Source of the DNA: a virus
DNA length: 22,139 nucleotides
IMG/VR virus record: IMGVR_UViG_3300046535_000517
Location: 1 to 22,139 of that record
Reading direction: 5' to 3' (one strand)
Shown: piece by piece, positions 10,765-22,139 of the stretch
How the letters are laid out: every line of letters starts with the position of its first letter
How positions within the stretch are numbered: position 1 is the first letter of the stretch
Program-made: the position numbers and the translations under genes
Notes under the pieces: model-generated
What the model was told of the DNA's origin: nothing
Seen by the model: only the letters and a program-made list of their open reading frames with translations
Databases searched by the model: none

Positions 10765-12273
10765 CTACGCGCCCTTGTAGCCCGAGGCCGAGACTTTCGT
10801 ACTCGCGCCGGTCGTCACGTTCGCACAGAACAGCGCCGTCGCCGTGGTGGGTTGCCGCAACGGCACGGGAAAGGTGAGCGTGGCACCACCATAGCCCGCG
10901 GCGGCCGGAATCGTGTAGAGCGTCGCGCCGCCACTGCCATCTTGAATCACGATGTCGGTGCCGACCGTCGCGTGCGCGTTCGACACCGTGATCTGCGTGA
11001 TGTAGTTCCGCAGGCCCGCGGCCGGCGCCGCCACGAGCGAGGTGGACGTCGTCGCCGTCATGGCCGTCGTAATCGCGCCGGCGACGAAGTTCTCCGGATT
11101 CGCGTACGGCAGCACGATCAGTTTGCCGACCAGGTCGGCGACGAGCTGCACCATGCGGCCGGTCGTGACCGCGCTGTTCTCCGCGGAGACGGCTTGCGCG
11201 CCGGTGTTCAGGGGATTGGTGCCGATGGCGACGTTGGTCGCCGCGTTGCCGCCGACCGCCAGCGTGCCCGCGAGGCCGGCCGTGACGGTGTTCGTGCCCC
11301 CGACTTGCGCCACGTTGACGCTCTGATTCGCCGGCAGGGCGACACTGTCGGGCGTGACGAGCAGCTTCGTCATGCTCGCGGCGCCTTGCACCGTCACGAC
11401 GCCGCCCGTGGGCGTGCCCGCACTGCCGGCGCCGACCACCGTCGCGTTCAACGCGGACGCCGTCGCCTGCGTGGCCGTGACGACGCCCGTCCCGTCCGTG
11501 GGGAGCTCCACCCGCAGCGCGCCCGCGGCCGGGCCGTGTCCCGTGACGACCGTCGCCCCATTCACCGAGGCGACATCCATCTGTTGGGCGTAGACCGTGC
11601 CCGACGGGTTGACCGCCGTCACGCCGCGCAACGTGCCCCCGATGTTGACGCCCCCGTAGTCGGCTTGCGTCGGCACGGCGGCGCCCGTATTCGAGGCCGC
11701 GCCGTTCCCCGTGCTCCCGCCCGTGATGGTGACCGGGATCGACGCGGTATTGTCCACGACGACATGCAACCGATGGTTGAGGCTGTCCCAGACATCCGCG
11801 AGAATCTTGTTGATCCCGCGCAGCTTCGAGCTGACGGTGCCGGCGTTGTCGCCCACCACGGCGGCATCCGTGGTCGAGCCCGTCGCCGCGTCCGCGCCGT
11901 CGGCAATCGTCACGGCGCCGCCCCCCCCGCCGCCGCCGCCGGCCGCCGCGCCACCGGTCGCCGCTTCCACCGCATTGAGCGTCACGACCGCCAGGCCCGA
12001 CGTCCACGCCGACAGCCGCACTTGCATCGACACGAGCGGCGAGGCCGCCTGCCACAAGCCATTCACCGTGGCACTGACGACCGGCACCGTCCCGTTGATG
12101 AGCGTGGCACTCAACGGCTGGAACGTCACGCCATCCAGTGAGCCCTCGAACTGGACGGTGCCCGCCCAGGTGCCGGTGATCTGGATGCCGAACCCGGCGA
12201 GCCCGGGCGGCGTCAGGCGTACCGTCGCGCCGACGGCGCCGAGCAACCCGGTATTCTGCGCGGAGGGCGCCAT
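10765..12273 (-). CDS. Putative fibre-like structural protein with polyglycine hinge
   Basis: A 502-residue protein whose ATG overlaps the stop of the second spike-base-like gene as TGATG. Residues 15-105 form a beta domain (FGIQITGTWAGTVQFEGSLD, then GVTFQPL) with the TVQFEGSLDG pattern seen in other phage structural proteins. Residues 106-120 are an Ala/Gly hinge that includes eight consecutive glycines encoded around a G8 run. Residues 120-410 are low-complexity and beta-repetitive (Thr/Val/Gly/Asn), consistent with an elongated shaft. The last 80 residues (NYITQITVSNAHATVGTDIV, then ATLYTIPAAAGYGGATLTFP) form a compact beta domain common in phage appendages. It probably builds a fibre or spike on the spike-base-like proteins encoded just upstream. 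No enzyme motif is visible. Confidence 0.68.
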   Translation of the reverse strand: MAPSAQNTGLLGAVGATVRLTPPGLAGFGIQITGTWAGTVQFEGSLDGVTFQPLSATLINGTVPVVSATVNGLWQAASPLVSMQVRLSAWTSGLAVVTLNAVEAATGGAAAGGGGGGGGAVTIADGADAATGSTTDAAVVGDNAGTVSSKLRGINKILADVWDSLNHRLHVVVDNTASIPVTITGGSTGNGAASNTGAAVPTQADYGGVNIGGTLRGVTAVNPSGTVYAQQMDVASVNGATVVTGHGPAAGALRVELPTDGTGVVTATQATASALNATVVGAGSAGTPTGGVVTVQGAASMTKLLVTPDSVALPANQSVNVAQVGGTNTVTAGLAGTLAVGGNAATNVAIGTNPLNTGAQAVSAENSAVTTGRMVQLVADLVGKLIVLPYANPENFVAGAITTAMTATTSTSLVAAPAAGLRNYITQITVSNAHATVGTDIVIQDGSGGATLYTIPAAAGYGGATLTFPVPLRQPTTATALFCANVTTGASTKVSASGYKGA

Positions 12274-12530
12274 CAGATTTGATAGACCGCGACGAGGTTC
12301 GTCGCCGAGGTCGACGTCGCATTAATGCGGCGCACCCCAATCGGCAGGATGCGGCCGGTGATGGCGCCCGCGAAGGTGCAGATCGTGTTGTCCGCCATGA
12401 CCGCCACGAGGACGCCGGCCCCGCCGCCGACGTAGATGCCATCGGTCAATTGTTTCGTTTGGCTGTAGCGCGGCAGATCAACCGTATCGGACGGCGTGAT
12501 CGCCTCGAATTTATTCAGCGGGCCGTTCAT
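12273..12530 (-). CDS. Spike-base-like protein, second tandem copy
   Basis: An 85-residue protein, MNGPLNKFEAITPSDTVDLP at the N-terminus, that matches its upstream neighbour along its whole length (about 60 identical residues in 82 aligned, counted by eye). The pattern ITPSDTVDLP...DGIY.GG....V..MAD.T..TF.......ILPI.V.R.NAT.T.A....AVY is typical of the small spike-base proteins named after the Rhodobacter gene-transfer-agent protein Rcc01079, which form the platform for head spikes. It ends with TGA overlapping the ATG of the fibre-like gene, consistent with a base-plus-fibre pair. Compared with the first copy it has a one-residue insertion in the GG loop and a different residue pattern in the central strand (NTICTFAGAITGR). 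Confidence 0.68.
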   Translation of the reverse strand: MNGPLNKFEAITPSDTVDLPRYSQTKQLTDGIYVGGGAGVLVAVMADNTICTFAGAITGRILPIGVRRINATSTSATNLVAVYQI

Positions 12531-12540
12531 GGCTGCTGCC

Positions 12541-12807
12541 TCAGATCTGGTAGACCGCGATCAAGCCGGTCGCCGTGGTATTAGTGGCGTTGACGCGGCG
12601 CACGCCGATCGGGAGGATCGTGCCATTCAGCGCGGCTTGAAACGTCGCGGTGGTCCCATCGGCCATCAGCGCGACGATTGACCCGGACCCCCCGATGTAG
12701 ATGCCGTCCGTGAGTTGTTTGGTTTGGGTATAGCGGGGCAGATCGACCGTATCGGACGGGGTGATCAACTCGAAGCGATTGAGTGGGCCGCGTGTCGTGC
12801 TGATCAC
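12541..12807 (-). CDS. Spike-base-like protein, first tandem copy
   Basis: An 88-residue protein, MISTTRGPLNRFELITPSDT at the N-terminus, overlapping the stop of the gp4-like gene as ATGA. It has the same spike-base pattern as the next gene (DTVDLPRYTQTKQLTDGIY, then MADGTTATF, then ILPIGVRRVNATNTTAT). The fold is expected to be a small beta-barrel; the family is known from Rhodobacter gene transfer agents and many phages. Ten bases separate it from its paralogue, so the pair arose by local tandem duplication. Both reading frames are intact, so both copies are probably made. They may form a heteromeric base or serve two different appendages. Confidence 0.68.
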   Translation of the reverse strand: MISTTRGPLNRFELITPSDTVDLPRYTQTKQLTDGIYIGGSGSIVALMADGTTATFQAALNGTILPIGVRRVNATNTTATGLIAVYQI

Positions 12808-13553
12808 GAGCCGCCTCCGGTCCCGCTCTCGATGTTGTAGCCGTGCCGATGGCGCGACCCGAATGCCGTCGCGAAATCACTCGGCAGATCCGACAGCCGC
12901 ACATTGGATCGGAAGATGTTCGCGAACGTCTCGCGCGCCAGCAGCGCATCGTCCGGCGGCAGCTCGCGCCCATACGGCCCCGCCAGGCGGCGCTCGAGGT
13001 TGTAGACGATGGCCTCATCGTAGCCATCGGGAAACGTGTAGATGGTCGTGTTCAGGTCCGCGAACGGCCCGAAGGTGGTTTCGAAGAAGATGACGAGGGT
13101 GTGCAGGCTGTTATTCGGGACCGGCCAGAGGGTCACGAACGCCAAGGGGACCAGGGGGCTGTAGTACACCGCCGTGGGCTGCATACTCGGCAAGGTTTTG
13201 ACCTGGATGGCGGCATACATATCGTCGGTCAAGATCGCCAATGGCACTTCCACCACGGGCGTCGTGCCCCCCAACTGGAGCGTCGCCTGCTGCAGACTGT
13301 TCTGATTGGACGGTTTCGGCGTGGCGATGTCGCCCCCGGGCAGGCCCCAGGTGTAGACCCGTTTATTGGCGACGAGCGGCACCGCCTGCGTGATGATCGC
13401 GTAGGCCTCCAGTTGCTGCGACCAGGTGCTCATCATCAGATTCAGGCGCGTCAGCGCATCCGCCGCGATCGCCGGCGGGAGCGTGATCCCCGGCTGGAAC
13501 ACGTTGAGATTTTGAAACGCCTGGGTGATGTAGGTCTGCGCCGTGCCGCTCAT
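12804..13553 (-). CDS. P22 gp4-like head-tail connector (head completion) protein
   Basis: A 249-residue protein; P22 gp4 is shorter (166 residues), but related proteins in other phages are of this size. In this family the protein forms the ring directly under the portal to which the gp10-like protein binds. The N-terminal helices (ITQAFQNLNVFQPGITLPP, then ADALTRLNLMMSTWSQQLEA) match the family pattern ..I..AL..LGV...GE.......A...LN.M...W. Aromatic strands follow (RVYTWGLPGG, TLWPVPN, HTLVIFFETTFGPF), then the late motif FPDGYDEAIVYNLERRLAGPYG. It lies downstream of the coat gene as in P22 (portal, scaffold, coat, gp4, gp10). The start is 4 bases after the previous stop. Confidence 0.8.
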   Translation of the reverse strand: MSGTAQTYITQAFQNLNVFQPGITLPPAIAADALTRLNLMMSTWSQQLEAYAIITQAVPLVANKRVYTWGLPGGDIATPKPSNQNSLQQATLQLGGTTPVVEVPLAILTDDMYAAIQVKTLPSMQPTAVYYSPLVPLAFVTLWPVPNNSLHTLVIFFETTFGPFADLNTTIYTFPDGYDEAIVYNLERRLAGPYGRELPPDDALLARETFANIFRSNVRLSDLPSDFATAFGSRHRHGYNIESGTGGGS

Positions 13554-13557
13554 CGCG

Positions 13558-13785
13558 TCACACCGGGCACCGGGTCGTCAGCAGCGCCGTCACCGCCGCC
13601 AGGGCCTCCAGTTCCGACCCGATCCCGCTGGCGCGCGCGGGCGGCTTCGGCGGATTGCCGGGATAGGGGACCGCACTCCAGTTCCCCCGATCGGGCAGCG
13701 CATTCAGCGCCGTGACCGTCTGCACGACCAGTTCTGGCCGTGTGGGATGGTAGACCCACGACGGGTAGCCGTCAGGCGCGGGCAT
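13558..13785 (-). CDS. YPxWxY-domain small protein, third copy
   Basis: A 75-residue protein with the domain GYPSWVYHPTRPELVVQ, then NALPDRGNWSAVPYPGNPP. This aligns with the start of the preceding 136-residue gene: (Y/F)PSW.Y.PT.P..VV......N.LP..G.WSA.PY.GNPP. A helix follows (LEALAAVTALLTTR). Related short proteins with YP.W.YHPT are scattered in phage genomes and have no established role. It starts 3 bases after the previous stop and ends 4 bases before the gp4-like gene, so it is a full operon member made together with capsid and connector genes. Confidence 0.65.
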   Translation of the reverse strand: MPAPDGYPSWVYHPTRPELVVQTVTALNALPDRGNWSAVPYPGNPPKPPARASGIGSELEALAAVTALLTTRCPV

Positions 13786-13788
13786 GCC

Positions 13789-14199
13789 TCACTCCTTCCC
13801 GCGATGGTTGCGCGGTTTCGGCGTGGGCTCGGACTCCGCGGGCTCTTCGATCTCCGCGTGCCGGCGGTGGCCGTGCTCCTTGTCGGCCGCGTCCTTCTCC
13901 GCGGCCTCTTTCTCGGCATGCTCCTTCTCCGCATGCGTGCGCTCATCGGCGGCCGTGGCGCGCACCGCCGCGGGCGGTTCCGGCAACCGCTGCGTCAACA
14001 GCAGCAGGATCGCCAGCATCGCGGCCAGCGGCGTCCCAGGCGGATCGATCTCCGGCAGTTGCGGCGGATTGCCGTCGTAGGGCGTGGCGCTCCAGCGGCC
14101 CGGGGGCGGCAGGATGTTGAAGACGTCGAGACTCTTCACCACCACGGCCGGTTGCGTGGGGTTGTAGGCCCACGAGGGGAAGGCAGTCGGTGTCGCCAT
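13789..14199 (-). CDS. YPxWxY-domain protein with charged AEKE-repeat tail, second copy
   Basis: A 136-residue protein. Residues 7-50 carry the same domain as its neighbours (FPSWAYNPTQPAVVVKSL, then GRWSATPYDGNPP). A hydrophobic helix follows (TPLAAMLAILLLLTQRL), then a highly charged tail of short repeats (THAEKEHAEKEAAEKDAADK) with His-rich and basic residues to the end. The upstream stop overlaps its ATG (TAATG), with a GGAG ribosome binding site before it. The tail could be a coiled coil or an RNA- or DNA-contacting arm. It may form a tail-to-head fitting or scaffold-type contact, which is speculative. Confidence 0.62.
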   Translation of the reverse strand: MATPTAFPSWAYNPTQPAVVVKSLDVFNILPPPGRWSATPYDGNPPQLPEIDPPGTPLAAMLAILLLLTQRLPEPPAAVRATAADERTHAEKEHAEKEAAEKDAADKEHGHRRHAEIEEPAESEPTPKPRNHRGKE

Positions 14200-14636
14200 T
14201 ACTTCTCCTTTTTGCCGCCGGCCCAGGCCGCCAGCCCGCTCTTCGGCGGCATCGGCGTCACGGGCACACTCGGCATGTGACCGGAGTACTCGGCTTCCGC
14301 CGCCCGCACTTCGGCCGTGGCTTTCTCGGATAGTTTGTATTTGATCTCATGCTCGCGTTCGGCGGCGAGCTTGGCGTATTCGAGGGCCTGCTGCTCGTGC
14401 GCCGCGAGCGCCGCCAGCGGCGTCGGCATGAACCCGCGGCCTTTCAGTAACGCCGCCTGCTGTTCATCGTCGGCGATTTCACTAGCCTCGATGGTCGTCG
14501 GACTGTTCGCGCGATACATCCACGTTGGATATTCGCGAAACACCCACGGCTTTTCACCGGGCCCCAGCTCGGAGTGCTGGGCCTCCCACTTGCGGCGCTC
14601 TTTGGCGTACGTGCTCTCAGGCGAGTGCAGGATCAT
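14199..14636 (-). CDS. YPxWxY-domain protein, first and most divergent copy
   Basis: A 145-residue protein, MILHSPESTYAKERRKWEAQ at the N-terminus, preceded by a GGAG ribosome binding site that abuts the hairpin at 14648-14678. Residues 30-75 (VFREYPTWMYRANSPTTIEA, then EQQAALLKGRGFMPTP) match the YPxWxY domain of the next two genes less closely. Residues 80-118 form a charged helix (EQQALEYAKLAAEREHEIKY), followed by a Pro-rich segment and a Lys-rich end. It follows a 74-base gap, so it may begin a translation block of its own. Function is unknown. Confidence 0.62.
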   Translation of the reverse strand: MILHSPESTYAKERRKWEAQHSELGPGEKPWVFREYPTWMYRANSPTTIEASEIADDEQQAALLKGRGFMPTPLAALAAHEQQALEYAKLAAEREHEIKYKLSEKATAEVRAAEAEYSGHMPSVPVTPMPPKSGLAAWAGGKKEK

Positions 14637-14647
14637 GTGTTAGCTCC

Positions 14648-14678
14648 GACCGCCCACGCTGAACGAGCGCAGGCGGTC
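14648..14678 (-). promoter_or_regulatory. RNA hairpin adjacent to ribosome binding site
   Basis: In the 74-base gap after the 210-residue gene, GACCGCC (14648-14654) pairs perfectly with GGCGGTC (14672-14678), with an inner GCT/AGC pairing around a GAACG loop. In the transcript the 3' side of the stem is directly followed by the GGAG Shine-Dalgarno of the next gene. There is no U-tract, so it is not a standard terminator. A 9-base direct repeat (CGCTGAACG at 14657-14665 and 14700-14708) spans the gap. It may tune translation of the downstream gene or act as an RNA-processing or stability element after the abundant coat transcript. Confidence 0.4.
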
Positions 14679-14710
14679 TACAAGACACCTCAAATACCGC
14701 GCTGAACGGA

Positions 14711-15343
14711 CTACGTGACGACGACGCCCACCGCACTGGTCACGTGCCACAGGCCGTTCTCGGCGAACAGCGTGATCGACGCGCCCTTGAACGCCGCGAA
14801 CGTCGCGGTTGTATGCGGCGATCCCGTCACGGCATCGGCCAGCAGCGTCGTCGCCGTGATGACGTGCGCCGCCGCCGTCTGCGACGTAATCACGACGCGC
14901 GTGCCGTTCAAGGTGAACGCGGGCGCCGCCAGTGTCAGCGCCGCTGCGGTCGCCTTGTTGATGTTGTAGACCACCGGGCCATTTGGCTGCGGGATCACAC
15001 CGTCCTGGCCGATCGTGACCGGATTGTCGATGCTCTGATCGATCAAGACCAGATCTCCCGGCGGAATCGCCCCGAAGTCATTCGGGTTGGACGACGTGAT
15101 CACGGGTGCCAGCACATCGTGCGCGACGGCGGCGGTGCCTTCGGCGCCGCGGCAGCGCACGGTGATGGTGTTCGCGACCGGGACGCCGGTCACGTACATG
15201 AATTCGCCATCGATCTGGACCGGCTGCGGCGGCTGCGCGTTCTGCGTGCCGACGACCGGGAAGCCCGTCGACGTCGAGGTGACGCCGAAGGTGATCTGCG
15301 AGGCGCTGATGGCGCTGGTGAGAGTGGTTTGTGTCAGGGCCAT
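14711..15343 (-). CDS. Small beta-rich structural protein next to coat, possible capsid decoration
   Basis: A 210-residue protein. The start chosen is MALTQTTLTSAI at 15343, 4 bases after the coat stop with GGAG upstream; a longer frame runs into the coat gene and is discarded. The sequence is strand-rich: QITFGVTSTSTGFPVVG, then VQIDGEFMYVTGVPVANTIT, VRCRGAEGTAAVAHDVLAPV, and near the end ATFAAFKGASITLFAENGLW followed by HVTSAVGVVVT. The region after residue 120 (GPVVYNINKATAAALTLAAP) looks like a repeated beta unit. Its position right after the coat gene is where decoration or head-stabilising proteins are often encoded. No family is recognised with certainty. Confidence 0.65.
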   Translation of the reverse strand: MALTQTTLTSAISASQITFGVTSTSTGFPVVGTQNAQPPQPVQIDGEFMYVTGVPVANTITVRCRGAEGTAAVAHDVLAPVITSSNPNDFGAIPPGDLVLIDQSIDNPVTIGQDGVIPQPNGPVVYNINKATAAALTLAAPAFTLNGTRVVITSQTAAAHVITATTLLADAVTGSPHTTATFAAFKGASITLFAENGLWHVTSAVGVVVT

Positions 15344-15347
15344 GATG

Positions 15348-16574
15348 TCAGCTCCACATTCTGATGGCGAAGTACGGCAACACCGAGGCGACGCCGCCAA
15401 TGGTGTCGATTCTGCTCGGCATCTGATCCGTCTGAATGTTGTACTGCTCGACCCAGCGCATCGAGACGCCCGTCTCCTTGTCGTTCTTGCGCGCGGCGTT
15501 CGCGCCGGGCAGCTTCGACGGCAGATCCACCATGACGAACGCGAACGCGGCCGGGTTGAAGATCAGCGACTGCTTGCTGGTCTGCGCCGACATCGTGCCG
15601 CCCACGGCGCCCGTCGAGCCGAGAAACAGGATGCTCGCGTTGTTGGCCGGTGAGGCGGTGACGGTCTGCAGGCCGCCCGAGGTGATGATCGGCGGGCTGA
15701 TCGTGAGCGTGGCTGTGGAGGTGCCCGCGACATCCGCCACCAGCACAAACTGCTGGAGGTCGCCCGTGTCGATGTAGCTGACCGGGTTCACGGCGTTGAC
15801 GCCGGCAATCGTGAACACGTCGCCCGCTTTCAAGGCATACGTGCCCCAGCCGCTCGTCGTGATCGTGCTGCCGGTCTGGCCGGCGCTGTTCACCAGTGGC
15901 GTCGAGGCGGTAAACGTGCCGGTCGTGTGCGTCGGGATGTTCGGATCCCAGTACCACTCGTCGACGCCGAGCGCGGCGCCGGAGAACTGGCCCGTCTTCC
16001 AGTACGTGGTGATCTGGTTCTGCGGATTGAACTGCGTGAACGCCGTTTTCAGGATGGCGCTCTGGCTCTTCGGGTCGAGCACCGCGCAGAATTCATCCGG
16101 CACCCCGACGTTGCGGAGCTTCGCGACCGCATCGGTGTAGGTGCCTTCCGCACTCAGCGGCGTGCCCGGGGAGCCGGCCGAGTAATAGACCGACTTGTAG
16201 ACCTCGGCGCCGGCGACGACGTCCCACTTGTTCGCCTGCGCCATGCCGGCCGGCTTCGTGTAGCGGTCCTGCACCTCTTCGACCAGTAGGCGGTCGTCGG
16301 CGCTCGACCAGCCGCAGCCCACCTGAAATTGGTGGTTCACGGTGATCGGGACGGTCTGGTTGTAGATGGCCTGCTGGACGAGCGCCTGGCCTTCGGTGAC
16401 GACCCAGCGCTGTTGAATGCGGGCCTGCACCGTGTAGCCGATTTTCGCGCCGCCGGGATCGTTTTCCCAGGTGCGATCCCACGAGCGGTCGAACTGGCCG
16501 ATCAGCTTGAGATTGTTCTTGAAATTGACGGCGACATCCGTCGTGACCCACGACGGGCTGATAAATGTATTCAC
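15348..16574 (-). CDS. P22 gp5-like major coat protein
   Basis: A 408-residue protein (P22 coat is 430). It starts at GTG with an AAGAGG ribosome binding site about 7 bases upstream, and the N-terminus is MNTFISPSW. Family hallmarks are the N-terminal NNLKLIGQFDRSWD and GAKIGYTVQARIQQRW (42-57), the insertion-domain segment YALKAGDVFTIAGVNAVNP (246-264) with its following strands, and the C-terminal block PAAFAFVMVDLPSK (341-354), AARKNDKETGVSMRWVEQYN (360-379) and SRIDTIGGVASVLPYFAIRM (387-406). These match the P22 coat family pattern, in which HK97-fold subunits build the icosahedral head. It lies directly downstream of the scaffold gene, as expected. Confidence 0.92.
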   Translation of the reverse strand: MNTFISPSWVTTDVAVNFKNNLKLIGQFDRSWDRTWENDPGGAKIGYTVQARIQQRWVVTEGQALVQQAIYNQTVPITVNHQFQVGCGWSSADDRLLVEEVQDRYTKPAGMAQANKWDVVAGAEVYKSVYYSAGSPGTPLSAEGTYTDAVAKLRNVGVPDEFCAVLDPKSQSAILKTAFTQFNPQNQITTYWKTGQFSGAALGVDEWYWDPNIPTHTTGTFTASTPLVNSAGQTGSTITTSGWGTYALKAGDVFTIAGVNAVNPVSYIDTGDLQQFVLVADVAGTSTATLTISPPIITSGGLQTVTASPANNASILFLGSTGAVGGTMSAQTSKQSLIFNPAAFAFVMVDLPSKLPGANAARKNDKETGVSMRWVEQYNIQTDQMPSRIDTIGGVASVLPYFAIRMWS

Positions 16575-16600
16575 GTCCGCCTCTTCGGCGGGACGACCGA

Positions 16601-17569
16601 TCAGGCCCGGCGGCGCTTGCTCCCGTAGTAGAACTGTTCGTGGGCGGAGAGCGAGGCGTCGGCGCCCGGCGGTTCGTCACCACCGCGCATCGGACCTGTC
16701 CGCACCGGATTAGGCGGGCGTGGTACCTGAGAGTTCACGGGCGCGGCGGTCGATCCGGTGGCGACGGCCTTTCCGCGCGGGGACGCAGAGACTCGCTGCG
16801 CGAGCAGCGCCAAGGTTTCCAGTTGGTCGAGCGGCGGCAAGGCGAGGACCTGCGGCAGCTCGTCCGGGTGCTTTTGAAAATGATAGAGCACATCGGCGCC
16901 GGTTTTGTGCTCCCAGATCCAGCGGTCGACCAGACTGCCCGGCGGGATGGTCGAGGGCGCCTGGAGCGCGACCTCATCGAAGTCCTGATACCGCTCGCGG
17001 GCGCCTTGTACTTTCTGCGAGAACGTCTGCGCGAACTGGCGCTCGGCCTGCTGCTGCTGGAGGGCCTGCTCGCGCCGCCAGATCGTGTAATCCGCCATCG
17101 CTTCGGCGTGGCGTTCGACGGCGAGGTTGTAATCTTCCTCGGGCTTCAGCTGGTCGATGAAGGCCTGCAGGCGGGGGGCCTGCGCCGTCGCCGCGGGCGG
17201 GGCTGGTGCCGGCGCTGGAGCGGCGCGCGGCGGGGCCGCGGCGGGGCGGCGCAGGGATTCGAGTTCGGCGTCGCGCTCGCGGAGCTTCCGCGTCAGTTCC
17301 TGAATGCGCGGGACGTCGGCGGGCGTCGCCTGGGCGCTCTTCGCGCGCTTGTTCGGGAGAAACTTGCCGTCGTCGCCGCGGGTGCGCTCGCCGGCGGCGG
17401 GCTCGGTTGCGTTGGGCGGGGCGGACGGGTCCGACGTGTCATCCGCGGCGGGCGGTTCCCGGTCGGTCCGGGCTTTCGCGGAAAATTGCTGTTCGTGATC
17501 GGCGAGCGATAGTTCCGGCGTCTCAGCCGGCGGCGTCTCGGCGCTTGGAACAGGCAGTTCGTCGGCCAC
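16601..17569 (-). CDS. Putative scaffold (head assembly) protein
   Basis: A 322-residue protein with a GTG start, placed between portal and coat, where P22 has scaffold gp8 (303 residues). The N-terminal 70 residues are acidic and disordered. Residues 86-106 are a charged helix (RIQELTRKLRERDAELESLR), and a Pro/Ala linker follows. Residues 135-200 form long helices (EEDYNLAVERHAEAMADYTI, then EQALQQQQAERQFAQTF), then RYQDFDEVALQAP and a segment typical of this family (LYHFQKHPDELPQVLALPP). The C-terminus is basic (YGSKRRRA), fitting the coat-binding ends of scaffolds. No catalytic motif is present. It is expressed from its own promoter-like element in the 93-base gap upstream. Confidence 0.75.
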   Translation of the reverse strand: MADELPVPSAETPPAETPELSLADHEQQFSAKARTDREPPAADDTSDPSAPPNATEPAAGERTRGDDGKFLPNKRAKSAQATPADVPRIQELTRKLRERDAELESLRRPAAAPPRAAPAPAPAPPAATAQAPRLQAFIDQLKPEEDYNLAVERHAEAMADYTIWRREQALQQQQAERQFAQTFSQKVQGARERYQDFDEVALQAPSTIPPGSLVDRWIWEHKTGADVLYHFQKHPDELPQVLALPPLDQLETLALLAQRVSASPRGKAVATGSTAAPVNSQVPRPPNPVRTGPMRGGDEPPGADASLSAHEQFYYGSKRRRA

Positions 17570-17580
17570 GGATGGCCTGT

Positions 17581-17610
17581 AGTGTGCCCCCGCCTCCCCG
17601 GCAGTGTCAA
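17581..17610 (-). promoter_or_regulatory. Sigma-70-type promoter candidate for scaffold/coat genes
   Basis: On the minus strand TTGACA (17605-17610) is followed after 18 bases by CACACT (17581-17586), which keeps the key A and T of the -10 box. The GTG start of the scaffold gene is 11 bases further on. The -35 core is the right arm of the palindrome at 17606-17619. The same -35/-10 pair (TTGACG, 17 bases, CACACT) stands before the 67-residue gene at 21804, and this independent repetition is the main support. Confidence 0.55.
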
Positions 17611-17640
17611 GAATTTGACTGGTCGCGTCAAGGATTTGAC
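17606..17640. promoter_or_regulatory. Two tandem GTCAA-N4-TTGAC palindromes, candidate operator
   Basis: Two near-identical 14-base palindromes, 17606-17619 and 17627-17640, have arms GTCAA and TTGAC around 4 bases. Their start-to-start distance is 21 bases, two helical turns, so bound dimers would lie on the same DNA face. The one nearer the gene contains the -35 core of the scaffold promoter, a placement typical for repression. They lie in non-coding DNA between portal and scaffold genes. The binding protein is not known; the HigA-like protein encoded at 21231-21623 is a candidate. Confidence 0.55.
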
Positions 17641-17662
17641 GGTCTCGGCGGCGGGCGACGCC

Positions 17663-20029
17663 TTACGCGCCGGTCGGCGCCACGGTCGGTGGTTCAGCCA
17701 TCGGGGCGGCCTGCGCGGCTTGCTGACCCGCCTGCAGACCCTGCCCATGCTCCTGGGCGGAGATCGCGCTGTCATGCGCGCGGTCCATCGCCGCCTGCTG
17801 CGCGTCCTGTTGCTGCGCGCCGATGCGCGCCCGCTCCTCGAGGAACAGCGACAGCCGATCGACCTTCGCCCCGAGCTCGGCGACGGTGATTTTCGTCTCG
17901 CGGTCGAGCGCGGCGATGCGTTCCTTCGACTCGAGCTCCATCTGCGTCTTGCGCAGCTCGGTCTGATACTTCGCGCTATCCGACTGCAGTTCCTGCGACG
18001 CGTGCTGCAGCAGTTTCTCGGCGTCCTGCAGGCGCTGCTGCAGTTGCTGCATCTGCGCGGCGATCGGCGGCGGAATCGCGCCGTGGCCCTGCGCCTGCTG
18101 CGTCAGCATCTGCTGAATCGGCGGCGCCAACATCACCTTCGCGCGCTCGGCCATCTCGAGATGCCCAGGCCCGTCCTGGTTCTTGAGGAACAAATCGCCG
18201 AACCAGGTGATCAGCTGCGGATTCGCTTGAATCAAATCCGCCATCATCGACGCTTCTTCCTGGCGGCGGCTATCGAAAGCTTTCGTGACGCGGACCACCA
18301 CGTTGAACGTGGCATCGGGGCTCAATGTGTAGACGGGCGGCGACGGCGGCGGCAGCGCCGGGCGCATCATCCCACCCGGTGGCGGCGGGGCGCCCATCGG
18401 CCCCGGCAGGCCCGCGGGACTCATGGGCGGCAGCAGTCCCGGCTGACCCGGCATCGGCCCCGTGGGCGCCCCCATCGGCGCGGCGAATGGCGGCTGTCCA
18501 ATCTGCACGGTTTCGGGTTCGCCCTGGCCGTTGATGATCCGCGCCAGGCGGCCGGGCCGCTTCCCGTAGATCGGATAGAGCAGGTTGTTGACGATCTGGC
18601 CTTCGTAGCGCATCGACCGGCGCAGGTTGTTGAGAAAATGCCCCGTGCCGTGTTGCGACTGCGCGATGAGCACCTGGGCCATCTTGCCGCTGCGGATGCT
18701 GCTGTCCTGACGCCCGATATTGGCATCCGGCACGCCCGTCGTGCTCTTGATCGCCTGATCAAACATCTGCACCGAGACCGCCAGGTCGTTGATCGGCGTG
18801 TCGACCGGCGTGCGGAACGGCGGCGGCGCCGGATTCCCCATCAGATCCGTGGTCTTGTACGGCAGCGCCGGCAACGTGCGCGTCGTCGCCGCCTGATACC
18901 ACGCGCGATAGACTTCCCACGTCCCCTCGGCCACCATCCACGGCGGAATCGGCGTCAGCCCGATCGTCTCGACGAGTTTCGAGACCATCGAGTTGAAGCC
19001 CATATTGGAATCGCGCGCCGGCCGCACCATGCCTTCGGCCCGCCGCTCCTGGTCGTACGGATGGAGCTCTTCACCGAGCACCTTCACGATCGGAATATCG
19101 GGACTTTCCCAGTCTGTCTCGTCTAATTTTTGAATCCCGTCGATCTTCGCGAATTTGATGTGTTTCTCGGTGACGCGGCGCGTGTCGAGCGGCGGCGGCG
19201 CGTCGGCCGGCAGTTCGTCCTGCCACGCGAACGTGCCGTCGAGCAGCGTGCAGAGCGTGCGGTCCTCGCGCTCGGTATACCAGTAATCCACCACGCGCAC
19301 CGACTTCGTGAGCTCGTTCGTATTCGAAAACCAGCCCGGGGCTTCGTCGCCGAGCGCGCGCCACTCCATGTCGCTCGCGGTCGCCGCGCGCGTCACGCGG
19401 TTCGTGCCGAATTCCGCCTCGTACTGCGCGATCGGCATATCGATGCCGACGAAGCCCCACTCGGCATCGCTGCCGTCCGGTTGTTCGTGCGCCGGATCGA
19501 GGCTGACGCTCGCCTGGTTGTAATAGCGATGGATGTAGACCTCCTGATCCATCGTTTTCCCCGCGAGATACCGCGTCATCACGCCGTAGTAGCCGCGGCC
19601 GGCGATGGCCGCGCGCGACGCCGCCCAGAGCCGCGCATCCGTCGCCTCGGGCGCGCGCTGAATCCCACGCACGAGCCCTTCGCGCACGTCAATCTCGCGA
19701 TCGCGATCGGGATTCGGCGTGGCCAGCGGCCCGAAATCTTCCGCCGCCGCAATCGTGATCGTGAATTCCGCGCCCTCTTCCTGATTGAGCACCTGGCGCA
19801 CGGGTTCACGGACTTTGTTGATGGTGAGCGTCGGCCGTTCCGGGGTCGGCGGGAGCCCCCCGACGGCTTGCTGGCCTTCGCGCTGCATCTTCGCTTCGCG
19901 CGACCATTGATCCCCGGCATAGAAGCGCAGATCGTCGAGCTCGCGCTTGCGCTGTTCGAGATCCGCGTCCTCCGCTTGCTTGAAGCGGTCGCGCGCGAGC
20001 TTGATGAAGTCGTCGTCGGCTTGACTCAT
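17663..20029 (-). CDS. P22 gp1-like portal protein with proline-rich insertion
   Basis: A 788-residue protein (P22 gp1 is 725). The start chosen is MSQADDDFIK, overlapping the upstream stop as ATGA; an in-frame ATG 18 bases earlier is less likely. The N-terminal part has the family's RELDDLRFYAGDQW (29-42), RPTLTINKVREPVRQVLNQE (65-84), a GYYGV segment (146-150) and the NQASVSLDPAHE segment (171-182). The middle has YKTTDLMGNPAPPPFRTP (391-408) and STTGVPDANIG (429-439). Residues about 510-567 are a Pro/Gly/Met-rich insertion. The family pattern then resumes (FNVVVRVTKAFDSRRQEEAS at 575-594, LFLKNQDGPGHLEMAERAKV at 613-632), and a Gln-rich coiled coil (660-770) would form the barrel. The portal is the dodecameric DNA gateway and terminase dock at one capsid vertex. 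Confidence 0.92.
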   Translation of the reverse strand: MSQADDDFIKLARDRFKQAEDADLEQRKRELDDLRFYAGDQWSREAKMQREGQQAVGGLPPTPERPTLTINKVREPVRQVLNQEEGAEFTITIAAAEDFGPLATPNPDRDREIDVREGLVRGIQRAPEATDARLWAASRAAIAGRGYYGVMTRYLAGKTMDQEVYIHRYYNQASVSLDPAHEQPDGSDAEWGFVGIDMPIAQYEAEFGTNRVTRAATASDMEWRALGDEAPGWFSNTNELTKSVRVVDYWYTEREDRTLCTLLDGTFAWQDELPADAPPPLDTRRVTEKHIKFAKIDGIQKLDETDWESPDIPIVKVLGEELHPYDQERRAEGMVRPARDSNMGFNSMVSKLVETIGLTPIPPWMVAEGTWEVYRAWYQAATTRTLPALPYKTTDLMGNPAPPPFRTPVDTPINDLAVSVQMFDQAIKSTTGVPDANIGRQDSSIRSGKMAQVLIAQSQHGTGHFLNNLRRSMRYEGQIVNNLLYPIYGKRPGRLARIINGQGEPETVQIGQPPFAAPMGAPTGPMPGQPGLLPPMSPAGLPGPMGAPPPPGGMMRPALPPPSPPVYTLSPDATFNVVVRVTKAFDSRRQEEASMMADLIQANPQLITWFGDLFLKNQDGPGHLEMAERAKVMLAPPIQQMLTQQAQGHGAIPPPIAAQMQQLQQRLQDAEKLLQHASQELQSDSAKYQTELRKTQMELESKERIAALDRETKITVAELGAKVDRLSLFLEERARIGAQQQDAQQAAMDRAHDSAISAQEHGQGLQAGQQAAQAAPMAEPPTVAPTGA

Positions 20030-20412
20030 CGGCCGCACACCAGCCACCGGAGGCGCAGGGACAGGGGCAGGTTTCTCGGCAGCAGGCCGCGCTGGCCGTC
20101 ACGCACCGTCGCTACCTGATCATCGAGCACGACGCATAACCCCTCGAGCAGCGACACCCGCGTCTCCAGCCGCCGCAGGGCTTCGGCGCACTCTTGCCGC
20201 GCCGACGCGATGCGGTCTTCGCTGCCGTGCGCGTGGAGCTCGAGCGCGTGCAGTCGGTCGTCGACGTGCTCGAGTCGGGCCGTCGAGGCGTTGAGATTGG
20301 GGAGGATCTGGTGATTGATCGCGTTGGTCTGCGCGTCGATGATACTGATCGCTTCTTCGCCGACGGTGCGCCGCACGTCACGCCGCAGCGCACGCGCGGC
20401 GCGGCCGTTCAT
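20026..20412 (-). CDS. Small coiled-coil protein upstream of portal
   Basis: A 128-residue protein, MNGRAARALRRDVRRTVGEE at the N-terminus, chosen because its ATG overlaps the previous stop as ATGA; a much longer in-frame option is Arg-rich and overlaps other genes. Residues 20-95 are one helix with regular hydrophobic spacing (IIDAQTNAINHQILPNLNAS, then ARLEHVDDRLHALELHA, then LRRLETRVSLLEGL), which points to a parallel coiled coil. The C-terminus is Arg/Leu-rich (NLPLSLRLRWLVCGR). The stop overlaps the portal ATG (ATGA), so it is tightly coupled to portal synthesis. The family is unknown. Confidence 0.62.
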   Translation of the reverse strand: MNGRAARALRRDVRRTVGEEAISIIDAQTNAINHQILPNLNASTARLEHVDDRLHALELHAHGSEDRIASARQECAEALRRLETRVSLLEGLCVVLDDQVATVRDGQRGLLPRNLPLSLRLRWLVCGR

Positions 20413-20603
20413 CGCGCCTTCGCTTTCAGCCGTGCCGCGTAGCTGGTGACGTGTTCCGGTTTGCTTTTCTCTGAACCGACCGCGAATTCGCGCAACTTCG
20501 CTTTCGGCATCGAGGCGCGCAGCTTCTCGGCTTTCGGAAACGTCGCGCCGTGTTCCGCGGCCTGGAACAAGCGCTGCTGCGCGCGTGATCGGGCCGGACT
20601 CAT
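20409..20603 (-). CDS. Small basic DUF3008-like protein
   Basis: A 64-residue protein starting MSPARSRAQQRLFQAAEHGA. The start is set by the ATGA overlap with the upstream stop. The pattern S.AQQR....A..........A..L...M....L..FA...... KPE.V resembles the small phage and bacterial proteins of the DUF3008 type (MPAKS.AQQRLMG). It is rich in Lys and Arg (KLRASMPKAKLREFA), so it may bind nucleic acid, although the family's role is not known. It sits in an ATGA-linked row of four small genes leading into the portal gene. Confidence 0.6.
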   Translation of the reverse strand: MSPARSRAQQRLFQAAEHGATFPKAEKLRASMPKAKLREFAVGSEKSKPEHVTSYAARLKAKAR

Positions 20604-20902
20604 CGCCGGTTGCCCGTCGTCCAGCCTGCCGCGCTCTGATGCGCGCCCGCGTGCCCCGCCGGCAACGTGCACGGCTCGGCCCCGGGCCCGATCCCCTCCG
20701 CACAGACGATCGTCTGATCGCCCGCCGTGGCGCGCGCGAGTTCGTCGACCCGCGCCTCGAGCTCGCGGATATCCGCCGCGGCGTCCATCACCCCGTGCCA
20801 GTCGCCGCTGTCCACCTTCAAGCGCAGATACGCAATGAGCCCCGCCTTCTGGGTCGTCACCGCGGCCTGACGGTCTGTCCCTGTGTCGCTCATGCGCCGC
20901 AT
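20600..20902 (-). CDS. Small helical protein with Cys/His tail, function unknown
   Basis: A reading frame of up to 100 residues; the real start may be MRRMSDTG or the inner MSDTG at 20893. Neither has a clear Shine-Dalgarno. The frame begins one base after the previous stop, so coupling is likely. Residues 20-58 form a helix (LIAYLRLKVDSGDWHGVMDA, then DIRELEARVDELARA). The C-terminus has CAEGIGPGAEPCTLPAGHAG followed by AHQS, that is two Cys plus the C.LPAGH.G.H pattern seen in high-GC bacterial proteins; a metal site is possible but not shown. Confidence 0.6.
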   Translation of the reverse strand: MRRMSDTGTDRQAAVTTQKAGLIAYLRLKVDSGDWHGVMDAAADIRELEARVDELARATAGDQTIVCAEGIGPGAEPCTLPAGHAGAHQSAAGWTTGNRR

Positions 20903-20903
20903 T

Positions 20904-21224
20904 CTACACCGGGCGTTGACTCGCCATCACGCGCTCCAGTTCGGCGATCTCGCCGCGTGATAAGAGCCGGTGCATCCACTCGGGAGGCGGCAACGCCTCA
21001 GCGGGCAGCTCGGTGACCGCCATCTCACCGCCCGGATTACAGCCCAGCAGCCACGCGCGCCGGATCGCGGCGGCGACCCACTCCGACCCTGGTTTGGCTT
21101 GTGGGGGCAGGTGCGCACGGGCGGCGACCGCGTCGGCCTTCCGCACCTGCACAATCGCCACGCCCAGGAACTGCTGTCCCAGCGGGCGGGCGCCATCCAC
21201 AAACGAGAGCCAATACGTTTTCAT
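20904..21224 (-). CDS. Conserved phage-type small protein (MKTYWLSF family), function unknown
   Basis: A 106-residue protein beginning MKTYWLSFVDGARPLGQQFL. I recall a conserved phage/bacterial pattern MKTYWLSF.D..RP.G..FLG..IV followed later by CNPGGE and RLLS, all present here (CNPGGEMAVTELP, then HRLLSRGEIAELE). The role of the family is not known. It looks like an alpha/beta domain with a central helix (ADAVAARAHL). It starts 6 bases after the HigA-like stop without a strong ribosome binding site, so translation is probably coupled. Confidence 0.68.
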   Translation of the reverse strand: MKTYWLSFVDGARPLGQQFLGVAIVQVRKADAVAARAHLPPQAKPGSEWVAAAIRRAWLLGCNPGGEMAVTELPAEALPPPEWMHRLLSRGEIAELERVMASQRPV

Positions 21225-21230
21225 GCGGGA

Positions 21231-21623
21231 TTAGCGGCGGCGGGGGACATCGACGACCGGTCCCGACTCGGTGCCGAGCAGCGCCCGCGTCGCCTGATAG
21301 GCCTGGTGCCGCCGCCGCGTCGCTGGCCGGTAGCGGCGCACGTGGATCGCCCCCGCCCGCCGGCGCACCGCGGCGATGTCATACGACGCCTGCATCTGCA
21401 GCAACGTCTCCAGGTCGACGCCGAACGCCTTGTCGAGGCGCACCGCCAGATCGCCGGACAGCGCCGCCGCCCCCGTCAGCACGTTCGACAGGGACTGCCG
21501 CGACACGCCGAGCACCGCGGCCGCCGCGGTCACGGTCAAATCCAGGGGGGCAAAGATCTCGGTGCGGATGAACGCGCCCGGGTGCGGCGGCGTGAACAGG
21601 TTAGGGCGTGGGCGCCGGGGCAT
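21231..21623 (-). CDS. higA-like: HigA/VapI-type HTH antitoxin-like regulator
   Basis: A 130-residue protein with the family's order: PPHPGAFIRTEIFAPLDLT (12-30), the helix-turn-helix AAAAVLGVSRQSLSNVLTGA (33-52), then LSGDLAVRLDKAFGVDLETL (55-74) and LQMQASYDIAAVRR (75-88). This matches HigA antidotes (PHPGE...EEFL.PLGLT....A..LGVSR...S.L..G...IS...A.RL..A......WL..Q..YDL). The 40-residue C-terminal extension is basic (RRYRPATRRRHQAYQ) and could contact DNA. No RelE/HigB-like toxin lies next to it; the upstream 67-residue gene is unrelated. Such proteins bind palindromic operators and repress, so this is the best candidate ligand for the GTCAA...TTGAC sites. It overlaps the previous gene by 23 bases. 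Confidence 0.85.
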   Translation of the reverse strand: MPRRPRPNLFTPPHPGAFIRTEIFAPLDLTVTAAAAVLGVSRQSLSNVLTGAAALSGDLAVRLDKAFGVDLETLLQMQASYDIAAVRRRAGAIHVRRYRPATRRRHQAYQATRALLGTESGPVVDVPRRR

Positions 21624-21804
21624 CGAGGCTCGCTAAGGCATGGTCGAACGCGCGCTTCACCAACTCGCGCATGCGCGCGCGAAACTCGGGCTCTTTCAGG
21701 ATTTCCGCCGCCAACTGCTCCGCGATTTTATCCGTCGTCCGACTGAGCGTCGTCACGACGGACGCGTTCACCTGTTGCGTAATCAAGGATTCCAGCAGAT
21801 TCAT
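21601..21804 (-). CDS. Small helical protein preceding HigA-like gene, function unknown
   Basis: A 67-residue protein, MNLLESLITQQVNASVVTTL at the N-terminus, almost fully helical (LSRTTDKIAEQLAAEILKEP, then RMRELVKRAFDHALASL), without Cys or Trp. Its ATG lies only 6 bases from the putative -10 box, and no Shine-Dalgarno is seen, so its mRNA may be leaderless or nearly so. It occupies the toxin position of a HigBA-type pair but shows none of the RelE fold pattern. It may be a partner or small regulator; this is inference. Confidence 0.58.
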   Translation of the reverse strand: MNLLESLITQQVNASVVTTLSRTTDKIAEQLAAEILKEPEFRARMRELVKRAFDHALASLDAPAPTP

Positions 21805-21810
21805 GGACGG

Positions 21811-21839
21811 AGTGTGGCACGCGCGCTGGAGGTCGTCAA
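21811..21839 (-). promoter_or_regulatory. Sigma-70-type promoter candidate for the small-gene block
   Basis: On the minus strand TTGACG (21834-21839) and CACACT (21811-21816) are separated by 17 bases, in the 55-base gap after the terminase gene. The -10 sequence is identical to that before the scaffold gene, and the -35 core is again the right arm of a GTCAA/TTGAC palindrome. The ATG at 21804 is 6 bases downstream, so transcription would start at or near the first codon. Confidence 0.5.
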
Positions 21840-21851
21840 GTCACGCTTGAC
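21835..21851. promoter_or_regulatory. GTCAA-N7-TTGAC palindrome, candidate operator
   Basis: GTCAA (21835-21839) and TTGAC (21847-21851) flank 7 bases and overlap the -35 box of the promoter before the 67-residue and HigA-like genes. The arms are the same as in the two sites upstream of the scaffold gene, but the centre is 3 bases longer, so binding by the same protein needs testing. The site is non-coding, between the terminase stop and the next gene. Confidence 0.45.
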
Positions 21852-21859
21852 ATGGCGCG

Positions 21860-22139
21860 TCACGCCTGCCACGACGCCGCCGGCAACCACCGCCCGCCCC
21901 CCGCCGCCGCCTGGTCCCCCCGCGGCGCCACCGGCAGCGCAAACGTCAGCGCCAGCGCATCCCCGTCATCCGGCGACGCCACCCCCCGCTTCGCCATCGA
22001 CTCCTTCGACTCCAGCACCAACTTGTTGTTCCGCAAATGAAACCCCGGCCCCGCCAAATCCGCCGCCAGCCGCCCCTTCGCGTCCATCCCCCGCGTGTCA
22101 ATCGCCCCCCGCCCCAGCCACTCCTTCAGCCGCCGCCAC
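21860..22139 (-). CDS. terL: Terminase large subunit, C-terminal end (partial, runs off the window)
   Basis: The frame is open from the right edge to a TGA at 21860-21862, about 92 residues. It shows the nuclease-domain end of a phage large terminase: WRRLKEWLGRGAI, then LAADLAGPGFHLRNNKLVLE and SKESMAKRGVASPDDGDALA followed by LTFA. The pattern L.ADL..P.......... LESKE.MKKRG.ASPD..DALALTF is characteristic. The aspartates in SPDDGD include the metal-binding acid of the RNase H-like nuclease. Large terminases power and cut DNA during head filling at the portal. The internal ATG at 22085-22087 is not the start. The N-terminal ATPase lies outside the window. Confidence 0.9.
   Translation of the reverse strand, partial: WRRLKEWLGRGAIDTRGMDAKGRLAADLAGPGFHLRNNKLVLESKESMAKRGVASPDDGDALALTFALPVAPRGDQAAAGGGRWLPAASWQA

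Follow-up and report, generated by a model that had tools for sequence, protein, structure and literature searches.

An operator-like palindrome shares the -35 element of a candidate scaffold-coat promoter in P22-like phages and recurs in a second head lineage

Scaffold and coat proteins must be balanced with one portal ring per phage head, and the best-studied relatives of the phage described here use one late transcript. The question raised by this locus is whether its head-shell genes possess a promoter of their own, which could be switched apart from the portal gene. The DNA analysed, referred to as the window, is the 22,139-base uncultivated phage contig IMGVR_UViG_3300046535_000517 (G000), with a P22-type head module on its minus strand. 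A DNA search with the whole region gave no match among annotated phages. Profile matches identify P22-type portal and coat proteins with a scaffold in between:

17663-20047, minus strand: portal gene, upstream of the proposed switch, 794 amino acids (PF16510 P22_portal, 3.8e-97)
16601-17569, minus strand: scaffold gene, GTG start, 322 amino acids (PHROG 8865 head scaffolding protein, 1.6e-15)
15348-16574, minus strand: coat gene, 408 amino acids (PF11651 P22_CoatProtein, 1.8e-15; PHROG 283)

The portal and scaffold genes are separated by 93 nt with no open reading frame (ORF) inside. This is the widest gap between portal and coat and among most of the listed head-module genes; the initial annotation had called it the largest of the operon, which is inexact, since 235 nt separate 12804-13553 from 13789-14199 in the same hand-made gene list. 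The gap contains the following elements (palindrome centres are counted with the -10 element set at -12 to -7):

17627-17640, no strand assigned: distal palindrome GTCAA-N4-TTGAC, GTCAAGGATTTGAC, centre about -59.5
17606-17619, no strand assigned: proximal palindrome GTCAA-N4-TTGAC, GTCAAGAATTTGAC, centre about -38.5
17605-17610, minus strand: -35 element TTGACA, present in relatives both with and without the palindromes
17581-17586, minus strand: -10 element CACACT, which is CAGACT or CAGAAT in relatives
17570-17580, minus strand: short leader ACAGGCCATCC, 11 of 11 bases invariant in four haplotypes

The two palindromes are indeed found where they had been reported, 21 bases apart from start to start, and the claimed TTGACA-18-CACACT overlapping the nearer one was confirmed on the minus strand (17610-17605, 18-nt spacer, 17586-17581). 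On this strand, the right arm of the proximal palindrome is identical to the first five bases of the -35 TTGACA. No other exact copy exists in the 22,139-base record. In 100 dinucleotide shuffles of the record the mean was 0.01 palindromes, with a maximum of one and never two, and the reversed-pattern control had 0 matches.

A standard TATAAT-consensus scan of positions 12000-22139 did not list the scaffold promoter and reported one promoter elsewhere, with 0.9 expected; the scaffold promoter is missed because CACACT scores below the TATAAT threshold. The support for this candidate promoter is its conservation and not its consensus score. It has the TTGACA, the 16-18 nt spacer, the A at -11 and the T at -7 of a sigma-70 promoter, and its elements are conserved above the spacer. 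When a -35, a -10 and a start codon close by were searched for under strict criteria, G005 (43 kb), G006 (31 kb) and a 40-kb part of G016 yielded only scaffold promoters, and the window yielded the scaffold promoter plus one more just after the right-edge gene:

21811-21839, minus strand: a further promoter of this type, TTGACG-17-CACACT, followed after 6 nt by an ATG, which is a leaderless geometry

Its -35 element is overlapped by GTCAA-N7-TTGAC (21835-21851). The right-edge gene is a putative terminase large subunit, as judged from its position and its translation; it has no family match. The window has a small ORF after this gene (21605-21804) that shares 95% identity over 62 residues with L015:654-856 and is oppositely oriented in L009, L015 and L016, i.e. 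it lies in an inverted segment. In the first 1300 bases of L004, L011 and L015, opposite-strand small ORFs follow the putative terminase, with TAGRCT located 6-8 nt before ATG (by eye), a spacing that is again of leaderless type.

The CACACT ends 11 nt before the scaffold GTG (start at 17569), and the leader ACAGGCCATCC contains no Shine-Dalgarno sequence, at most AGG. The usual distance between -10 and +1 places transcription initiation about 4-6 nt before this GTG, which gives a predicted start at about 17573-17575 and a leader of about 4-6 nt. Such an arrangement is close to that of bacterial leaderless genes, for which the available part of Zheng et al. 2011 (PMC3160421) gives TANNNT about 12 bp before the start, and which it finds in 3 of 3 Acidobacteria genomes, at 13.3% on average. 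In 16 genomes centred on an Acidobacteria MAG, TTGACA-N16..18-TANNNT-N5..9-ATG occurs 87 times versus 2 times for the reversed control. With C at -12 there are 52 versus 6 matches, and with the ATG 20-24 nt away 42 versus 4. Thus a leader this short and a C at position -12 both fit the promoters of such host-like genomes. The Acidobacteria are a weak host lead, which comes from one MAG contig (L182, binned with an Acidobacteria MAG) carrying a partial coat relative (66%); the other genome match for the coat is a Planctomycetota MAG (47%).

The conservation of the palindromes was followed in 59 loci encoding coat relatives. Of 12 loci that extend into the region and have a coat identity of 88% or more, 11 carry the pair; two of these, L009 and L019, are opposite ends of the same contig, and L018 is the sole miss (L005, L007, L013, L014, L017 and L061 end before the region). 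It is also present in four further contigs (L202, L203, L206, L209), found by a promoter pattern free of the palindrome. Conservation in close relatives, a check that had been set beforehand, is thereby borne out. In four diverged haplotypes, the 20 arm bases are all invariant, as opposed to 3 of the 8 bases in the loops and 8 of the 18 in the spacer (the other 10 vary); for arms against loops plus spacer (20/20 vs 11/26) the Fisher p is 1.7e-5, which for four related haplotypes is only indicative. The 60 nt upstream of the palindromes are just 22-38% identical (ungapped) among the same haplotypes and thus represent unrelated DNA. This pattern supports a function of the palindromes. As to the phasing suggested in the initial annotation, the 21-bp spacing holds in the window and in L028, whereas a fixed helical phasing does not, 17 bp being the common spacing, found in all the remaining pairs inspected at scaffold promoters of this clade.

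What is encoded between portal and scaffold is completely variable, but the window, L015, L004, L008 and L011 all have the pair next to the scaffold promoter. In L015 these ORFs are HNH-like, HicA, CopG-like and RNA-polymerase-alpha-CTD-like genes; in L004, L008 and L011 large ORFs of unknown function occupy the region. The junction in L015 (5191-6510) is a cassette site, with the HicA toxin above the Pfam cut-off and both the HNH-like gene and the CopG-like antitoxin below theirs. Directly upstream of the switch, L015:6512-7075 (also in G005) encodes a protein resembling the RNA polymerase alpha C-terminal domain (PF03118, 4.3e-5, 23.6 bits with a cut-off of 23.8), the N-terminal segment of which matches the C-terminus of the window HTH_3 protein. 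G005 (IMGVR_UViG_3300047319_000521) carries two coat/scaffold variants at opposite ends of its 42,973-base contig, which is therefore probably an assembly chimera of strains that occur together.

The position at the edge of a hypervariable region might suggest that the palindromes are neutral remnants at a cassette boundary or, as RNA hairpins, a terminator or processing site. We regard this as very improbable, because the arms are invariant while the loops and the 17/21-bp spacing change, and because the -35 is shared. The RNA hairpin or terminator version was set aside on a fold z-score of -0.28, and there is no T run.

An exact palindrome before the scaffold is missing from L018 (88% coat identity), which has a two-mismatch GTCGT-N4-TTGAC there, a remnant or a precursor, and from those P22-like relatives of greater distance that were covered. 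L044 has a single GTCAA-N4-TTGAC site, which does not precede the scaffold, and in L028 (67%) the 21-bp-spaced pair directly follows a long ORF, a putative terminase, and precedes a TAGACT that lies 9 nt from a TTG start. The promoter itself is kept: within the close clade TTGACA, the -10 element (CACACT or CAGACT) and the 11-nt leader ACAGGCCATCC are retained, and L018, with different upstream DNA and no exact palindrome, still has TTGACA-17-CAGAAT-11-GTG (counted to the second in-frame GTG, homologous to the window start and set by hand). L031, L034 and L059 (66-67% coat identity) have TTGACA-17-CAGACT-9-TTG, and L048 (61%) has TTGACA-17-CACACT-14-ATG; the distance from the end of the -10 element to the start is 9-14 nt in L018, L031, L034, L048 and L059. 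The candidate scaffold promoter is therefore more widespread than the palindromes.

Together with the window, the coat loci make 60, of which 49 could be examined (the remaining 11 begin too near the coat gene); L030, which has no frame, was dropped together with L037, L042 and L045, whose scaffold frames are truncated, leaving 45 P22-like loci. In 19 of these 45, or in 9 of 27 distinct upstream sequences, the scaffold start has a promoter no more than 110 nt away, where first-order Markov resampling predicts 0.04 distinct sequences per lineage; 26 of the 45 loci have no such promoter before the scaffold. Scanning viral contigs for the promoter only (TTGACA-N16..18-CASACT-N1..5-GGCCATCC) gave 20 stretches, 18 of them on contigs with a scaffold, coat or portal match; in the other two, L207 and L217, no such match was found. 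Different arrangements are seen in L053 (2150-2290) and L054, which have TTGACG-17-TAGACT, and in L026 (2300-2490), with a weaker candidate TTGACA-17-GATATT; in all three a strong hairpin and a T run follow just before the scaffold. These relatives may use attenuation or antitermination instead, to go by the arrangement of their DNA.

A scan of viral contigs for GTCAA-N4-TTGACA-N16..18-CASACT revealed that the combination of palindrome and promoter is not restricted to P22-like heads. It returned 38 stretches: 15 from the P22-like clade, five from a second lineage (L219, L228, L237, L238, L240), two others of high GC and 16 of low GC, the last of which may be coding coincidences. Among the 22 stretches with a GC content above 0.6, 20 are located directly upstream of a scaffold or scaffold-position gene. 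The two others, L231:915-952 and L239:5340-5377, are GTCAA-N4-TTGACA-17-CAGACT before other genes on high-GC contigs, and in L239 the -10 element ends 6 nt before an ATG.

The scaffold-, coat- and portal-position proteins of lineage 2 gave no significant match to the window proteins. The gene after the promoter is homologous among the five phages and is called a putative scaffold from its position alone, as family searches do not identify it as one and give one weak holin-family match; the gene that follows in L237 codes for a major head protein from a different family (PHROG 9953; PF17236). Nine of 19 lineage-2 coat relatives carry one or two palindromes before the scaffold, as a 17-bp pair in L219 and L228, and the promoter precedes the scaffold in 16 of the 18 loci that could be used, or 8 of 10 distinct sequences, 1-72 nt from the listed start (L248 was left out, its DNA not reaching the promoter). 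Lineage 2 was found via a pattern containing the palindrome, so that its scaffold matches are partly selected; its other sites are not. Six records were read for these other sites (G047, G049, G051, G052, G062 and part of G050), of which G049, G050 and G062 are alike in the region read. All six lineage-2 records with a scaffold site have a further site at a candidate terminase-side promoter, and G047, G049, G051 and G062 have one at a candidate leftward promoter (TAGCCT, with TTGACA or CTGACA at 17 nt). The terminase is putative, its name being taken from a sub-threshold PF17289 match, and several terminase-side sites fall within mechanically listed ORFs. G054 and G055 (52% coat identity) have a single site, inside an ORF of 175 amino acids. 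Among 20 records tested (coat relatives and pattern matches) the site is found in 17 and the reversed control in none. The two lineages have exchanged genes, because they share several non-head genes, e.g. one for a 5'-3' exonuclease-type protein with 43-44% identity.

The position of the palindromes says something about the kind of regulator. In 15 of 20 hand-listed promoters an operator centre lies at -37.5 or -38.5; the remaining five have their closest copy at -27.5, -28.5 or -41.5, and further copies occur at -20.5, -49.5, -55.5 and -59.5. A repressor suits this better than an activator, because the operator takes several positions and mostly includes a perfect -35. The palindromes could instead be the site of an activator or of antiterminator loading, analogous to a Q-binding element, that turns the promoter on or modifies the polymerase. 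Two copies upstream of a late promoter do resemble the tandem Q-binding repeats of phages 21 and L (in the accessible text of PMC8022706), and the hairpin and T run of L053/L054 and L026 recall antitermination-controlled late promoters. Moreover, three terminase-side promoters of lineage 2, with centres at -27.5/-28.5, have at best CTGTCA at 18-19 nt as -35, and L028 is similarly poor in this element. However, the scaffold promoters have a perfect TTGACA and varying operator positions, and L018, L031, L034, L048 and L059 keep the promoter without an exact site. In the window, no terminator lies between promoter and scaffold, with only 11 nt from the -10 element to the start. We therefore consider a positive role quite unlikely and retain the repressor.

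As to its origin, 44 phage records totalling 1.20 Mb contain the palindrome 58 times (control 0), and nine host-like genomes totalling 38.2 Mb contain it 24 times (control 9). The phage records are not a random sample: they were partly chosen for carrying sites, 24 of the 44 were picked from the window and coat relatives after the site carriers were known, and the 58 sites include near-identical contigs. The sites being dense in phages and sparse in host-like genomes suggests a phage-encoded binder, and on these counts the protein is probably of phage origin. A host-encoded regulator, by comparison, appears decidedly unlikely: an exact site does overlap candidate promoters in 3 of 16 host-like genomes, but the density is low (24 vs 9 control in the nine genomes), no tandem pair occurs in the 16 genomes, and the host assignment itself hangs on that single MAG contig. 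The host-like site of L195-L199 lies between UDP-glucose dehydrogenase-like and glycosyltransferase-like genes, as named from reading the translations.

Integrase and HTH_3 genes are present in both lineages, and at BLAST sensitivity no helix-turn-helix protein common to both was detected. The HTH_3 gene of the window (21231-21623) was rejected as the binder, as only a 26-residue C-terminal piece matched among L003-L061, at four loci. A scan of viral contigs for tandem pairs (at least 119 stretches with gaps of 4-14 only, mostly from lower-GC unrelated phages) was likewise set aside for naming the binder: among the matches listed, the neighbours are not enriched for regulators (HTH_3 in 1 of 75 flanking proteins scanned, 119 having been selected), nor is a -10 element enriched at the expected distance. 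The listed pairs (L062-L180) favour gaps of 5, 7 and 9 (42, 33 and 39 matches) and show 15, 9 and 3 at gaps of 4, 6 and 8.

If the binder is a phage repressor, it could be the CI immunity repressor of a temperate phage, acting at late as well as early promoters. The integrase gene of G005 has an HTH_3 gene in its vicinity, in G047 two such genes are adjacent, lineage 2 carries the site at a leftward promoter too, and a 14-bp palindrome with an A/T-rich centre is like a 434 operator. On the other hand, copies of the site at early promoters flanking a repressor gene were not seen: the near-complete G005 has exact sites only at its scaffold promoters, and its single one-mismatch site (24707) lies 225 bases beyond the integrase within another ORF. 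The cI-cro-like control regions of G047 and G051 contain half-sites and other palindromes and no GTCAA-N4-TTGAC. We hold the CI assignment to be doubtful; it would be one particular form of the favoured reading and does not contradict it.

The reading that we favour, and consider likely, is that of a near-leaderless scaffold-coat promoter blocked by a dimeric, probably phage-encoded repressor. The underlying claim, an operator-like site sharing the -35 of a dedicated scaffold promoter, agrees with the sequence, the position and the conservation in close relatives; from the motif, its position, its conservation and its recurrence we infer transcription, repression, the binder and the timing. 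The sigma-70-type TTGACA-18-CACACT would start a nearly leaderless scaffold and coat mRNA independent of portal. The 14-bp GTCAA-N4-TTGAC would be bound by a dimeric protein, most likely a helix-turn-helix repressor encoded by the phage, which would exclude RNA polymerase, because one palindrome arm is the -35 itself; the second palindrome, located 17-21 bp upstream, would increase occupancy. Once repression is relieved, head-shell production would be released as a separate step. An additional late promoter may exist upstream in the window phage.

A repressible scaffold-coat promoter in two dissimilar head lineages would mean that late transcription has been split at this point repeatedly, and the palindrome provides a short sequence tag for seeking the regulator. 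More tentatively, and rather against the odds in our estimate, an operator-promoter module for the head shell might circulate among temperate phages that are otherwise dissimilar and trade genes, and be read by a late repressor distinct from the immunity repressor. If so, a prophage or a co-infecting phage could silence scaffold and coat synthesis of its relatives, or alternatively a phage could time shell assembly apart from portal.

Several known systems share parts of this arrangement. The operators of phage 434 are 14-bp palindromes with an A/T-rich centre, whose tandem copies stand about two turns apart and overlap the -35. Among lambdoid repressor operators they are the closest parallel, in palindrome length, A/T-rich centre, tandem copies and -35 overlap. 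They differ in that the present sites occur at the promoter of structural genes, have the half-site GTCAA, and in G005 lack an exact copy at an early promoter. The overlap of a repressor operator with the -35 is textbook knowledge. A repressible near-leaderless scaffold-coat promoter in two head lineages was not found described in the titles and abstract openings of the open-licence literature searched. What appears to be new is the use of the -35 overlap at such a promoter, recurring in two head lineages.

The late operon of P22 and phage L resembles the window in its gene order of portal, scaffold and coat and in the protein families. According to the accessible part of PMC8022706, the virion genes of P22 and, by analogy, of L are transcribed from one late promoter with antitermination, whereas here a conserved candidate internal promoter with an operator-like site precedes the scaffold. 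The contrast with the single late promoter of P22, drawn at the outset, holds against this part of the source. With the leaderless bacterial genes, to the extent that they are covered in the available text of PMC3160421, the window-type scaffold promoters share a -10 element ending 9-14 nt before the start, but they have C instead of T at -12, GTG or TTG starts and a -35 that carries an operator-like site. That geometry does not extend to L053/L054 or to several lineage-2 phages, in which the distance is 21-72 nt.

Satellites such as PLE with its helper ICP1 and P4 with P2 repress or tune the capsid genes of the helper phage, as stated in the accessible portion of PMC7567579. The likeness lies in the head-shell genes being a separately tuned target of transcription, and the locus described here bears on a question raised in that portion, namely whether head genes can be repressed on their own by way of internal promoters. 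In contrast to the satellites, which act on a helper, the site is here conserved in the phage itself.
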